Shown one piece after another: positions 20,877 to 42,982 of a DNA stretch of 64,000 nucleotides. Below the pieces are notes generated by a model that was given only the letters and a program-made list of their open reading frames with translations, had not been told where the DNA came from and did no database searches. Source of the DNA: Devosia sp. 67-54. Its GTDB lineage: Bacteria > Pseudomonadota > Alphaproteobacteria > Rhizobiales > Devosiaceae. How positions within the stretch are numbered: the first letter of the stretch is position 1; the number at the start of each line of letters is the position of its first letter. The stretch spans positions 1,139,014 through 1,203,013 of the forward strand of contig NZ_MKVA01000005.1 of NCBI RefSeq assembly GCF_001899075.1, in the 5' to 3' direction. The position numbers and the translations under genes are program-made.

Positions 20877-20967
20877 TGGCGGAGAGGAAGGGATTCGAAC
20901 CCTCGAGACCCTTTAGAGGTCTGCGCCCTTAGCAGGGGCGTGCCTTCGACCACTCGGCCACCTCTCC
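20877..20967 (-). tRNA. tRNA-Ser (anticodon GCT)
   Basis: Minus strand GGAGAGGTGGCCGAGTGGTCGAAGGCACGCCCCTGCTAAGGGCGCAGACCTCTAAAGGGTCTCGAGGGTTCGAATCCCTTCCTCTCCGCCA; acceptor GGAGAGG/CCTCTCC, long variable arm, encoded CCA. Confidence 0.95.
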
Positions 20968-21053: not shown

Positions 21054-22118
21054 TCAGCGCCGGCGCAGATTGCCGTCCTGCGAGTAGAGCAGCGCGGTGA
21101 GGCCGGCGAGGACCGAGACGACGGCGGGGCCGGCCATGGCCCAGAGCGGCGGCAGCACGTCGGCATTGCCGGCCCGCACCGCCATCTCGTTGATGGTGAA
21201 CAGCGCAAACCCCATAACGATGCCGAGCAGCACGGTGTTGCCGTACTGCACGTTGCGCCGATAGCCCGAGGCGGTGGCGAAGCCGATCAGCACCGAGCCC
21301 ACCACCATCACCGGCAGGGTGAAGATGCGGTAGAGGCTGGTCAGCGAGATGGCCCGGAACTCGCTGACAGAGAGCGAGGTGGTGGCGGCGGCGACCAGCT
21401 CGGCCAGCGTCAGGTCGCGCACGCCGCTGGCCTGCAAATCGAGATCGCCGGGCGTCGTTTTGGTGGCAATCGCGAAATCGTCGAGGCGCTCGGGCGCCTG
21501 GTCGAAGCGGTAGCGGGTGGCGGTGGGGAAAACCCATTTTCCGGCGTGCAGATTGCCCTCCGCCGCCTCGATGCGGTCGCGGCCTTCGGTGCCGGACAGG
21601 AACACGGTGACGCCGTAGATCGCGGGCGGATTGCCGGTCAGCCGCTCGGCCCTGAGGATGTAGCGCCCGTCGGCGCCGGTCTGTTCCATCCAGGTCGGGC
21701 CGGATTGCTGGTCGACCGGCTGGCCGGGCAGCAGGCGGTTGCCGACGATCAGCACGGTGGCGCCGCCGACCGAGAGCAGCAGCGACAGCACGAACACGGC
21801 AAGGACCGGCGCGCGCAGCACGGTCCAGATCGAGCGGCCGGTCGCCTGGATGATGGTCAGCTCGCGCCGCGCCTGCAGGTCGAGCACGCCGGCGATGGTG
21901 CCGATGAGCACGGTGACCGGCAGCACGCCGATGGACGAGCGCATGGCGCTGAGCAGGATGCCGGCGATCACCAGCGGTGGCCCGCCGATGCCCGCCAGCG
22001 TGCCGATCTTGCTGGTGTTGAGCGATTCGATCAGCGCAAACAGCGCCAGGAAGACGGTCACCGTCAGCAGCACGCGCGCCAGCACGCGCCGCAGCACCAG
22101 CCGGTCGATGCTCGTCAC
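21054..22118 (-). CDS. lptG: LptF/LptG (YjgP/YjgQ) family permease, LptG-like
   Basis: 354 aa; 'DRLVLRRVLARVLLTVTVFLALFALIESL', 'LQARRELTIIQATGRSIWTVLRAPV', C-term 'GNTVLLGIVMGFALFTINEMAVRAGNADVLPPLWAMAGPAVVSVLAGLTALLYSQDG'. Not in the lptF-lptD operon. Confidence 0.75.
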   Translation of the reverse strand: MTSIDRLVLRRVLARVLLTVTVFLALFALIESLNTSKIGTLAGIGGPPLVIAGILLSAMRSSIGVLPVTVLIGTIAGVLDLQARRELTIIQATGRSIWTVLRAPVLAVFVLSLLLSVGGATVLIVGNRLLPGQPVDQQSGPTWMEQTGADGRYILRAERLTGNPPAIYGVTVFLSGTEGRDRIEAAEGNLHAGKWVFPTATRYRFDQAPERLDDFAIATKTTPGDLDLQASGVRDLTLAELVAAATTSLSVSEFRAISLTSLYRIFTLPVMVVGSVLIGFATASGYRRNVQYGNTVLLGIVMGFALFTINEMAVRAGNADVLPPLWAMAGPAVVSVLAGLTALLYSQDGNLRRR

Positions 22119-22128
22119 GCCTGCTTCC

Positions 22129-23610
22129 TCATGGAGCGCGATACCCCTGCCCGAGATAGATGTCGAAGCTCCACACCTGCCGGCCCGCCACCGTCACCGG
22201 CACCTCGGCGAGCTTGCTGACGGCGGCAAAGCGCGGCGCCGCCAGCGAAACCGGATTGCTCGAATCGGCGACGATGATGGCGTCCTGCCCCTGATGGGCG
22301 GCCGGCGACCACCAGAAATCGTATTGCGAGCGCAGCGGGTTGATGGCGGTGACTCCGGCGTCGTGCAGGGCAAACCCCAATTGTGCGGCGTAAGTATAGC
22401 GGGTGGCGGCCAGGAAGGCACCCGGATGGCCGGTTTCGGCCTCGCGCACCGCCGCCGCCACCCTGTCCCAGCCGAAATTGGAGGGGATCGTGGGGTCGCG
22501 GAAGCCCGGCAGGTTCAGCGGCAGGCCGGCATAGCTCGAAATGGCCATCGCCGTCACATAGAGGCCGATCAGCACCTGCGGCCAGAGCAGCCAGCGGCCG
22601 AGCAGCCAGGGGCCGGCCAGCGCCAGCGCCACATAGGCGACGATGTTCCAGTGCAGCAACACGTCGGTGTAGAGCGCCGCCAGCAGCACGACGCCCGTCG
22701 AGCCCACGAACATGGCCGCCGTCACCGGCCGCAGGCGTTGCCCCGCCGGGTCGCGCAGCCATGGATAGCGCAGCGCCGCGAGCAGCAGGACCGGGCCGCA
22801 GGCGGCGAGCGCCTGCAGCAGGAAGCCGAGGCCCTGCCCCAGAGCCGGATGGCCCCAATGGTTCGCCGGCCGCTCGACGAAATGATAGCTGAGCGTGGCA
22901 AAGCCCTCGGTCAGGTTCCACCAGACCACCGGCGCCTGCAGCGCGATGGCGAGCAGCGCCGCGAGCCAGGGGTGCGGCGTGCGCAGGGCGCTCCACAGCG
23001 GCCGGTGGGCGGCGAACAGCGCCACGCTGCCGACCCCCAGCAGTGCGCCATTGTATTTCGACAGCGTGCCGAGCCCGATGGCGAGGCCGGCGAGATAGAG
23101 CCAGCCGGCGCCGCGGCGGGCGCTCTCCCAGGCCTCGTCGAAGCGCCACAGGGCGTAGAGCGCCAGCACCGCGAAGAACACCAGCAGATGGTCGTGGAAG
23201 GCCTCGAAGGTGAACAGCGCCACCACCGGCACGGTCAGCAGGATCGCCGCCATCGGCAGGAAGGCGGCGAGCGGCCGCTCCGGCGCCAGCCGCCCGGCCC
23301 AGGCCCAGAGCACGGCGAGCGTTCCGGCGAGGCTGACCCAGGTGAGCAGCCTGAGACTTACGGTCGACCAGCCGAACAGCGCCGCCACGCCGGCCTGCAG
23401 CCAGGCATCGAGCGGCGGGTGGTCGAAATACGACCAGCCCGGCCGCTGGCCCCACATCCAGTAATAGGCCTCGTCGCCCATCGGCGGCGCGCTGACATCG
23501 TAATAGAGACGCAAGCCGGCGACGCACAGAATCACCGCCGCCAGCAGAACCGTTTCGAGCGTCCAGCGGGGCGAAGGGGCGGCGGCCGGCATGGGAAATC
23601 CTGATTGCAC
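22129..23610 (-). CDS. GT39/ArnT-like membrane glycosyltransferase
   Basis: 'PPMGDEAYYWMWGQRPGWSYFDHPPLDAWLQA' DExxY...DHPP motif typical of PMT_2; many TM segments. Confidence 0.82.
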   Translation of the reverse strand: MQSGFPMPAAAPSPRWTLETVLLAAVILCVAGLRLYYDVSAPPMGDEAYYWMWGQRPGWSYFDHPPLDAWLQAGVAALFGWSTVSLRLLTWVSLAGTLAVLWAWAGRLAPERPLAAFLPMAAILLTVPVVALFTFEAFHDHLLVFFAVLALYALWRFDEAWESARRGAGWLYLAGLAIGLGTLSKYNGALLGVGSVALFAAHRPLWSALRTPHPWLAALLAIALQAPVVWWNLTEGFATLSYHFVERPANHWGHPALGQGLGFLLQALAACGPVLLLAALRYPWLRDPAGQRLRPVTAAMFVGSTGVVLLAALYTDVLLHWNIVAYVALALAGPWLLGRWLLWPQVLIGLYVTAMAISSYAGLPLNLPGFRDPTIPSNFGWDRVAAAVREAETGHPGAFLAATRYTYAAQLGFALHDAGVTAINPLRSQYDFWWSPAAHQGQDAIIVADSSNPVSLAAPRFAAVSKLAEVPVTVAGRQVWSFDIYLGQGYRAP

Positions 23611-39321: not shown

Positions 39322-40410
39322 GTGGCCCGCCTAAGCCGCTATCTGGCAAGGCTTTTCTGGTCCGAGGCGATGGCGCTGTTTGCCGTCGCCGCCTTTCTGC
39401 TGTTCCTGATTCAGTGCCTCAGGCTGTTCGACCTCGTCTCCGACAAGGGCCAGAACGTGCTGACGCTGGTGGGCCAGACGCTGCTGACCATGCCCGGGCT
39501 CGGCGTGGCGTTCCTGTATGTCTGCCTCGGCATCGGCCTCGGCCGGGCGCTGCGCGGGCTGCAGGCCAGCAGCGAGCTGGGCATCATCCATTCCAACGGG
39601 CTGCTGCCGGTGCTGCTGCGGGCCATCGGCCTCTACACCCTCATCGGCACGGTCGCGGTGCTGCTGCTGTCGCATGTCGCCGATCCGCTGGGCTCGCGCG
39701 CCACCAATGACTGGTCGACCAGCATCGCGGCAGACCTGGTGTCGCGCAGCATGATCCCGCACCGCTTCACCTCGCTGGGCGGCGGTGTGTCGATGGTCAT
39801 CGGCGGGCGCGATTCGCGCGGCAACATCAGCGATTTCTTCGCCGACGACCCGCGCGACCCCGATCTGCACCGCACCTATTTCGCCCGTGCCGCCATCATC
39901 ACCCATGACGAGCAGGGCTACGTGCTGCGCATGCACGACGGGGCGGTGCAATACCTCACGGCCGACGGCCGCTTCTCGCAGGTGGCGTTCAAGCAGTACG
40001 ATCTGCCGATGGACCGGCTGGCGGCCGATTCCGGGGCCGCCGACGGCCTGGCGCAGAGCCCGAGCTACGACCTGGTCGCCACGGCGCTCGAAACCGGCCA
40101 TTGGGACCCGGCGGTGGTCAAGACCCTGCTCAAGCGCAGCGGCGAAGGGCTGCGGGTGCTGGCGCTGTGCGCCCTGGTCACGGCGCTGGCGCTGTTCCCC
40201 AGCGGCCGGCGGCGCGGCGACGCGCCGGTCGAGATCGTGGTGCTGGGCGCCGCCTTCATCGAGCGCGCCCTCACCTCCTACGTCGTCGGCCCGGGCATTC
40301 TGGGGGTCGCGTCGGGATCGGTGATCATCCTCGCTGCCGCGTTGGTGCTGCTCGGCGCGCGGCTGCGGGTGTTCCGGCCGGTCCGCTGGCGGCGGAAGGC
40401 GGCGGCATGA
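39322..40410 (+). CDS. lptF: LPS export permease LptF
   Basis: MARLSRYLARLFWSEAMALFAVAAFLLFLIQCLRLFDLVSDKG...; YjgP/YjgQ family; upstream of lptD. Confidence 0.85.
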   Translation: MARLSRYLARLFWSEAMALFAVAAFLLFLIQCLRLFDLVSDKGQNVLTLVGQTLLTMPGLGVAFLYVCLGIGLGRALRGLQASSELGIIHSNGLLPVLLRAIGLYTLIGTVAVLLLSHVADPLGSRATNDWSTSIAADLVSRSMIPHRFTSLGGGVSMVIGGRDSRGNISDFFADDPRDPDLHRTYFARAAIITHDEQGYVLRMHDGAVQYLTADGRFSQVAFKQYDLPMDRLAADSGAADGLAQSPSYDLVATALETGHWDPAVVKTLLKRSGEGLRVLALCALVTALALFPSGRRRGDAPVEIVVLGAAFIERALTSYVVGPGILGVASGSVIILAAALVLLGARLRVFRPVRWRRKAAA

Positions 40411-40679
40411 GCGTGAGGGGCGGCGCGAGGCGGAAATTAACCATCCGGCACGCTGCCGGCCGGCAATTTACGCAGGTTTATCTAACGCCAAATAACCATT
40501 GCGGCGTGGTCCTTTATGGTGTCGTCGCCGGTTTTGTGCTGTATGTAGCTTTCGAGTTGGCGGCCGGGCATCCGGCCGTCGGGGCGTGGGGACCCGCATC
40601 TGCCGCTCTGGGGCCGGCATTTGTGGGCGTTTTTGTTGGGCGCAGGGTGCTGTTCAGACAACCGGACGGGCGAGCATGA
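40407..40679 (+). pseudogene. C-terminal remnant / minimised lptG in the operon slot (90-aa ORF)
   Basis: ATGA overlaps with both lptF stop and lptD start; 'GVVLYGVVAGFVLYVAFELAAGHPAVGAWGPASAALGPAFVGVFVGRRVLFRQPDG' aligns by eye to the C-terminus of the 21054..22118 LptG-like protein; no room for a full gene. Confidence 0.7.
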
Positions 40680-42982
40680 CGATCTTGCCCCGAGGCAGCA
40701 GCAACGGATCTCGGACGCGGCGGGCGATTGCGCGCGTCCTCGCCGGATTCGGCCTGGTGCTGCTCACGGCGCTGCCGGCCCACGCCACGCTGCTGCCCGA
40801 GGGCTTTTTCGACATGGTGCCGTCGCCCGGCGGCAACCCTGCGGCGGTCGAGGCCGACCAGATGTCGTACGAGGGCGGCACCGGCATGATCGCCGCCGAC
40901 GGCAAGGTGGTGATGTCCTACCAGGGCTTCACGCTGACGGCCGACCGCGTCGAATACAACATGCAAAAAGGCTCGGTCATGGCCGTGGGCCACGTGACGC
41001 TGACCAATGGCGGCACGGTGATGCACATGGACTCGATCGAGGTCACGGGCGGCCTCAAGGAGGCGTTCCTCAATTCGCTGACGATCACCACCGGCGAAGG
41101 CGCCAGGATCACCGCCGGCAGCGTGCACTTCCAGTCCGATTTCGAGACCATGCTGACCGATGCGAGCTATTCGCCGTGCGGCCTGTGCATCGACAGCAAG
41201 GGCCGCAAGATCGGCTGGAAGGTGAAGGCCGCCAAGATCCACTACAGCCGCGACCATGCCTCGGTGACGCTGGAGCAGCCCTCGCTCGAACTGCTGGGCA
41301 TTCCGGTGGCCTGGCTGCCGTGGTTCTGGGTTCCCGATCCGACGCAGCCGCGCGCCACGGGCCTGCGCATGCCCAGCGTCGACTACGACGCCAAGCGCGG
41401 CGCCGTCGCCGCAATCCCGTATTTCGTGCCGGTAGGCGAAGACATCGACCTGGTGCTCACGCCGCAATTGATGAGCCGGCAGGGCGTGCTGATGGGCGGC
41501 GCGCTCAAATGGCGCCTGCCGCCCTATGGCGAGGTGTCGATCAAGGCGTCCGGCCTCTACCAGCTCGACAAATCCGCCTTCGCCGGCACGGTCGGCGACC
41601 GGCAGTGGCGCGGCGCCATCCAGACCTCGGGCCGCTTCACCCCGGCCGACCACTGGATCGCCGGCTGGTCGTATTCGACCTTCACCGACCAGGCGTATCT
41701 GGTCGACTACAAATTCACCGACGCCGACAGCTACACCAACCGCGTCTACGGCACCTATCTCAACGAGATGACCTATTTCGATGCGCGCATCGAACGGGGC
41801 AACCTGCTCGGCAACTACGCCACCGACGATCCGGCGCAGGCGACGCTGCTGCCGCAGGTGACGTTCGAGCACGTGCAGGACCTCGCCCCCGGCTTCGGCC
41901 GCGCGCATCTGAGCGGCGAATTGCTGCGCGTCACGCGCCAGGCCGACCAGACCGCGACCTATGGCGGCATCCCCTACGTCACCGGCTACGAGGGCACCAA
42001 GCAGCACCTCGCGCTCGAAGGGGCGTGGGAAGACCAGTTCATCCTGCCCGGCGGGCTGGTGGCGACGCCCTATCTCGGCGCCCGGCTCGACGCCACCTCC
42101 TACGACCGCACGCTGGGGGCCATTCCGTCGCTTCCCGCACCGGCACTTCCCTACCCGACGCAGTTCGACAGTTCGCTGCTCAGCGTCACGCCGATCGCGG
42201 CGATGGACGTGCGCTGGCCGCTGGTGGCCAAATCCGGCTTCGACACGCACCTGGTCGAGCCGGTGGCGCAACTGGTCTATCGCGGCTCGTCGACCACCAA
42301 TGTCGGCATCACCAATGACGACGCGCAGAGCTTCGTGTTCGATACCTCGAACCTGTTCACCTACAACCATTTCTCCGGCATCGACCGGCAGGATACCGGG
42401 CTGCAGGCCAATATCGGCGCGCACTATCTCGGCAATTTCGCCGACGGGAGCTGGATCGACCTCGTCGCCGGCCAGTCCTTCCATCTCGCCGGCGTCAACG
42501 CCTTCGGCGCCAGCGACGCGGCGCAGACCGGCACCAGCACCGGGCTGGGCAGCGCCGAATCGTACCTCGTGGGCAGCGCCCGCGCCGGCTTCGCCAACGG
42601 GCTGACGCTCGCCGGCAAGCTGCAGGTCGATCAATCGACGCCGCGCATCACCCGCGCCGGCGCCGGCGCCAGCTTCACCTTCGCCAACGGCCTGTCGACC
42701 AGCGGCACCTACATCTACATCGCCAAGGACGCGGCGCTCGGCACCACCGTCGACCAGCACGAGATCCAGGGCGCGGTGGGCATTCCCGTCGCCGATTACT
42801 GGCGCCTCAACGGCGACCTGACCTGGAACCTCGCCAGCAATTCCTGGCTGCGCTCCGATGTCGGGGTCACCTATGACGACGGCTATCTGGTGCTGGGGGC
42901 CGGCGCCAATTTCACTCCGACGAGCTGGGGCACCGGCTTTACCTTCAAATTGAAGGGACCCGACGGCCAGGCCGTTTTCTGA
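40676..42982 (+). CDS. lptD: LPS-assembly protein LptD
   Basis: 'VEADQMSYEGGTGMIAADGKVVMSYQGFTLTADRVEYN' OstA-like N-domain, beta-barrel C-domain; operon with surA-pdxA-rsmA. Confidence 0.88.
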   Translation: MTILPRGSSNGSRTRRAIARVLAGFGLVLLTALPAHATLLPEGFFDMVPSPGGNPAAVEADQMSYEGGTGMIAADGKVVMSYQGFTLTADRVEYNMQKGSVMAVGHVTLTNGGTVMHMDSIEVTGGLKEAFLNSLTITTGEGARITAGSVHFQSDFETMLTDASYSPCGLCIDSKGRKIGWKVKAAKIHYSRDHASVTLEQPSLELLGIPVAWLPWFWVPDPTQPRATGLRMPSVDYDAKRGAVAAIPYFVPVGEDIDLVLTPQLMSRQGVLMGGALKWRLPPYGEVSIKASGLYQLDKSAFAGTVGDRQWRGAIQTSGRFTPADHWIAGWSYSTFTDQAYLVDYKFTDADSYTNRVYGTYLNEMTYFDARIERGNLLGNYATDDPAQATLLPQVTFEHVQDLAPGFGRAHLSGELLRVTRQADQTATYGGIPYVTGYEGTKQHLALEGAWEDQFILPGGLVATPYLGARLDATSYDRTLGAIPSLPAPALPYPTQFDSSLLSVTPIAAMDVRWPLVAKSGFDTHLVEPVAQLVYRGSSTTNVGITNDDAQSFVFDTSNLFTYNHFSGIDRQDTGLQANIGAHYLGNFADGSWIDLVAGQSFHLAGVNAFGASDAAQTGTSTGLGSAESYLVGSARAGFANGLTLAGKLQVDQSTPRITRAGAGASFTFANGLSTSGTYIYIAKDAALGTTVDQHEIQGAVGIPVADYWRLNGDLTWNLASNSWLRSDVGVTYDDGYLVLGAGANFTPTSWGTGFTFKLKGPDGQAVF

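Follow-up and report, generated by a model that had tools for sequence, protein, structure and literature searches.

An in-frame lptG remnant between lptF and lptD in Devosia sp. 67-54 and its possible role as a translational bridge

The slot between lptF and lptD, two genes of outer-membrane assembly, in Devosia sp. 67-54 is occupied by the last fifth of lptG, truncated yet in a readable frame. The feature lies in a window of 64,000 nucleotides, the whole stretch of DNA analysed here, as an ORF of 90 aa at 40407..40679 (+), which comprises a start codon coupled to lptF, about 20 non-LptG residues and then the TM5-TM6 tail of LptG. It is best explained, with moderate confidence, as an internally deleted lptG whose peptide is mostly relaxed and whose open frame is maintained as a translational bridge leading from lptF to lptD. 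A literature search returned no paper naming lptG together with Devosia, and nothing on a relic of this kind.

The upstream partner, lptF (39322..40410, +), encodes the LPS export permease LptF (Pfam LptF_LptG, E = 3.3e-24; TIGR04407, E = 3.3e-30) and the downstream partner is lptD (40676..42982, +; Pfam LptD, E = 2.2e-45). The remnant overlaps both of them. The lptF stop and the remnant start share an ATGA at 40407-40410, and a further ATGA at 40676-40679 joins the remnant to the lptD start; these coordinates confirm the 90-aa ORF with ATGA overlaps at both ends that an earlier note on this DNA had described. The conserved 3' end of the remnant, GACGGGCGAGCATGA at 40660..40679 (+), overlaps lptD and is probably its initiation region. 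The 90 residues contain two hydrophobic stretches, against the six TM helices and the periplasmic domain of a full-length permease. Because some 280 LptG residues, those of TM1-TM4 and the periplasmic domain, are absent, the slot cannot provide a functional LptG.

The part at 40467..40676 (+) corresponds to the C-terminal ~70 codons of tandem lptG. The LptG profile TIGR04408 matches residues 34-82 of the remnant at profile positions 300-348 of 351 (17.8 bits, E = 0.001), and BLASTP against the full LptG encoded at 21054-22118 gives 34% identity over 59 aa (E = 8e-7). The profile score does not reach the curated whole-protein cut-off of 240 bits, an equivalog cut-off that is harsh for this family, as the full LptG of the same genome (128.5 bits) and LptF (105 bits) also fall short of their own equivalog cut-offs. 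The Pfam LptF_LptG match to the same C-terminal part is weak and under the family cut-off (E = 0.37). The tandem LptG tails of relatives are closer to the remnant, with 36-51% identity in alignments that begin at residue 16-21, and the remnant of genome G004 shares 53% (E = 4e-19), as against just 31% over the same 68 codons for the full LptG of its own genome. Identities of 36-53%, E-values down to 4e-19 and the same operon slot show common ancestry with LptG C-termini, and the resemblance that the note had drawn by eye is borne out by both the profile HMM and the pairwise alignment. Its first ~32 aa had been described as lacking LptG resemblance; the N-terminus is indeed unrelated, but only for about 20 aa, as the likeness begins at residue 21 (FTQVYL...) and residues 21-90 represent the LptG C-terminus (TM5-TM6).

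As a rule, the other Devosiaceae examined carry lptF and lptG in tandem with lptD behind them, in agreement with the suggestion that the slot ancestrally held full lptG. A family-wide search covered 136 Devosiaceae genomes with a match in 133, of which only three combine an LptG tail in the slot with a full lptG elsewhere. These are the window genome (G000) and two MAGs, G004 (SEEL01; L061 10157-10390, ORF of 77 aa) and G005 (JANXSI01; L067 3967-3641, minus strand, ORF of 108 aa), so that the in-frame tails span 77-108 aa. The three tails align without a gap over 68 codons, their homology begins at one codon (the FT of FTSGYRR), and all of them retain the ATGA at lptF and the overlap at lptD. 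The lptF-lptG junction carries ATGA in all 14 intact operons inspected, and therefore the coupling is the ancestral state. Each remnant is shorter than the intact orthologues at the same locus and has a full copy elsewhere, as in a pseudogene or relic; none contains a stop or frameshift, and a broken frame of the kind that defines pseudogenes is thus not seen. Across species the remnant overlaps one neighbour at its start and the other at its stop, as a translational bridge should. Other candidates were discarded, since G049, G061 and G100 hold full-length lptG carrying frameshifts (L141, L142 and L143), which are probably assembly errors, and G134, G109 and G045 represent contig ends. A separate apparent frameshift splits lptD in G018, a D. 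nanyangense MAG (L068 4331-4335).

An own-genome search identified two full LptF/LptG-family genes, lptF and an lptG of a second type at 21054..22118 (-) (Pfam, E = 3.8e-37; TIGR04408, E = 2.3e-37). This type-2 lptG is the only full lptG of the genome, and we infer that it supplies the working LptG. Directly upstream of it lies a PMT_2/GT39-type glycosyltransferase gene (22129..23610, -). G004 and G005 carry this pair as well, so that the full lptG stands directly behind a GT39 gene in all three remnant genomes, with differing flanking genes. For example, the pair of G004 follows an ABC-F gene and lies some 3-4 kb upstream of lptF, and that of the window is located 17-18 kb from the remnant slot, on the opposite strand, adjoining a tRNA-Ser gene. 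This tRNA-Ser(GCT), at 20877-20967 (-) directly downstream of type-2 lptG, is a possible landing site of the pair in this genome. About six other PMT_2/GT39 paralogues, one with an internal TAG, are arrayed outside the window at G000:C5:220479-229984, and the lptG-linked gene at 22129-23610 belongs to a lineage separate from that array.

The LptG tree sets the tandem LptG of G006 and G018 (support 98) apart from the GT39-linked LptG of G004, G000 and G005 (98), and the two groups together form one clade (100). Likewise, the GT39 partners of type-2 lptG make up one clade (95), whose sister is the ordinary GT39 of that species group. Because both the LptG types and the GT39 partners form clades, the GT39-lptG pair is a diverged paralogue with a single origin by duplication inside this species group. 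A source of the full lptG outside this clade, one of the two origins that the earlier note had offered, is rejected, as type 2 and the clade's own tandem LptG are sister groups (support 98-100). The other, a relocated lptG, is not supported in its simple sense either; the full copy is a type-2 paralogue with a GT39 partner and not the same gene moved.

The three remnant-bearing species do not form a clade. Core genes join G004 with the intact G006 (five-gene set 100, LptF 92, valS 94), the five-gene set places G000 near G018 and G005, and monophyly of the three is rejected (AU p = 4e-5). The polA fragment from G005, at 66-70% identity, is unreliable. The LptG tree in turn rejects the species topology (AU p = 4e-9). 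Either both lptG copies were present in a common ancestor and were lost differently, or the GT39-lptG pair moved between species. Since the remnant-bearing species are not a clade, at least two truncations are the simplest count under either option; tandem lptG was probably cut down two or more times independently, in frame and to the same codon on every occasion. A single truncation, with G006 and G018 later regaining the gene, could also have occurred.

The abundance of A/T-ending codons in the ORF had been taken as exceeding that of the neighbouring genes. Such codons are present (GC3 of 0.60 over 68 codons), but they are not peculiar to the ORF. As the same stretch of the relatives' intact tandem lptG is equally low (0.53-0.69), they are ancestral and no sign of decay. 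Whole intact tandem lptG genes of relatives show a GC3 of 0.79-0.86, and among 18 intact Devosiaceae operons the GC3 of lptG drops to 0.46 at codons 286-300, from about 0.85 elsewhere. Strong synonymous-site conservation is found at codons 282-306 of intact lptG, where a block TTTACSGCNGGTTATCGAAGR is followed by TATGG (e.g., L064, L068, L073). Counting degenerate columns with a conserved amino acid in which a minority codon is retained in at least 80% of the genomes gave 0 of 120 for lptF, 0 of 181 for lptD and 11 of 125 for lptG, seven of the 11 within codons 282-306. The rare CGA and AGR codons of the block are fixed across most of Devosiaceae, and frameshifting at its fixed pair of rare Arg codons is conceivable. 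Some sublineages lack the block, as does type-2 lptG (3-5 mismatches), and its matches elsewhere in the genome are few and inexact. Within the block, AAGGA-N9-ATG opens a +1-frame mini-ORF of 16-17 codons (MVGRCFMVSSLVSWFMS-like) in 15 intact genes of the first set, and the start is ATG in 17 of the 19 intact genes of that set. A conserved RBS with a +1-frame mini-ORF of ~17 codons was rejected, as G008 retains just 2 codons of the frame and neither G005 nor the window has kept the SD-like part. The block marks a function that tandem lptG serves at the nucleotide level and that is given up after the gene is cut down.

The retention of the tail could be explained in several ways. It may be a plain decaying relic, truncated after the type-2 takeover and open merely through short time, with no selection acting on it. 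The remnants stand at three stages of divergence, with about 91%, 66-71% and 47-50% identity to intact tails, the G004 tail being 91% identical to G006 LptG. Measured against the clade ancestor, w is 0.18 for the G004 remnant, 0.56 for G005 and 0.51 for the window, compared with 0.03-0.13 for intact genes, although the remnant branches mix time before and after truncation. The G004 remnant is conserved and those of G005 and the window appear relaxed, the latter two near 0.5 as decay would have it. The chance of encountering no stop under neutral substitution is ~0.67 (G004), 0.5 (G005) and 0.37 (window), and the open frame alone is accordingly a weak argument for a bridge. However, all three remnants run in frame from the lptF ATGA as far as the lptD overlap, their 68-codon tails contain no gap, and probably two or more independent truncations have preserved this layout. 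The chance of finding all three open and in frame together is roughly 2e-3 to 4e-5, a rough product of estimates in which the frameshift factor comes from assumed ratios of indels to substitutions (1:20 to 1:10). Plain decay is therefore regarded as unlikely, if still a serious candidate. A minimised two-helix membrane peptide, kept for itself through, for example, contact with LptF or the transporter, is rather improbable. TM5 of the G004 tail shows 0 nonsynonymous versus 7 synonymous changes, the TM5 hydropathy of the window is unchanged from the ancestor (2.01 vs 1.96), a basic N-terminus precedes the hairpin, and the window's hairpin is on average more hydrophobic than in neutral simulation (p = 0.04), which might reflect a role of the peptide itself and counts against the bridge. 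Yet the GYRR motif before TM5 is altered in every remnant (TYQR, GYRG, VYLT), the hydropathy of G005 fits neutrality (p = 0.28), w is ~0.5 for both G005 and the window, and the G004 remnant may just be a recent one. A slightly less probable variant is that repeated replacement by GT39-linked LptG left, at least twice and independently, a selected two-helix micro-LptG acting on the transporter from its LptF side or on transporter assembly.

The least probable explanation is that the tail was kept for the codon-level conserved cis element of intact lptG, be it a promoter or another lptD signal. It is compatible with the marked synonymous-site conservation in intact genomes and with the homology of all three remnants starting at the first codon of the element, so that their first homologous codons are an eroded copy of TTTACSGCNGGTTATCGAAGR (40467..40487, +, in the window). 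The core GGTTATCGAAG, exact in 56 of 68 intact genes, has nonetheless changed at 3 of its 11 positions in each remnant, and no sigma-70-like promoter, Rfam match or conserved RNA structure was detected for the block (alifold z no better than -1.9). The element was dropped as the reason for the remnant, being largely refuted by this erosion. The relic and the minimised peptide posed by the note are not fully separable, as the amino-acid sequence in the window is close to relaxed (w ~0.5) but still hydrophobic and open; that the old locus survives as a relic of the LptG C-terminus, its frame open and its coupling overlaps in place, is supported.

The bridge is favoured over decay, a selected peptide and a cis element because the relay is ancestral, coupling of overlapping pairs is documented, and an in-frame deletion retains it. 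We infer this role from the overlaps in all intact operons inspected and all remnants, the ancestry of the tail, the non-monophyly of its bearers, the raised w and the joint in-frame chance. The ancestral tandem lptG would have been internally deleted at its slot, with LptG function handed to the diverged type-2 paralogue in the GT39-lptG pair ~18 kb away. The deletion would leave the lptF-coupled start codon and, in the same frame, the last ~70 codons (TM5-TM6) as far as lptD. Amino-acid replacements would now be mostly tolerated, and stops and frameshifts would be selected against because ribosomes leaving lptF must cross this short frame for an efficient lptD start. An in-frame internal deletion would preserve the translational relay, and a stop or frameshift would break it.

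The last 70 residues of the remnant lie ungapped on TM5-TM6 of LptG (TIGR04408; Pfam PF03739, LptF_LptG; LptB2FG permease), in the same operon slot, but it lacks ~280 residues and scores far under the family cut-offs. Tight translational coupling has been documented, at least for the overlapping gene pairs (4-nt or 1-nt overlaps) treated in PMC10666635. The remnant resembles those pairs in its ATGA at both ends, its short frame and the little other spacing before lptD; it differs from them, as described there, in being a relic-like middle cistron with a largely unconstrained product, and the coupling here is read from sequence. Similarly, it shares with pseudogenes truncated after paralogue replacement a full gene elsewhere, a raised w and a shortened copy at the ancestral locus, whereas its frame and both overlaps are intact in three genomes that form no clade.

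The remnant illustrates a route by which a gene of an essential pathway may be lost from a translationally coupled operon: a paralogue takes over elsewhere, and the old lptG copy is shortened in frame and not deleted, probably since the relay through the operon has to be preserved. A lead on the control of the LPS-export operon comes from the block of intact Devosiaceae lptG, which disappears wherever the gene is shortened.
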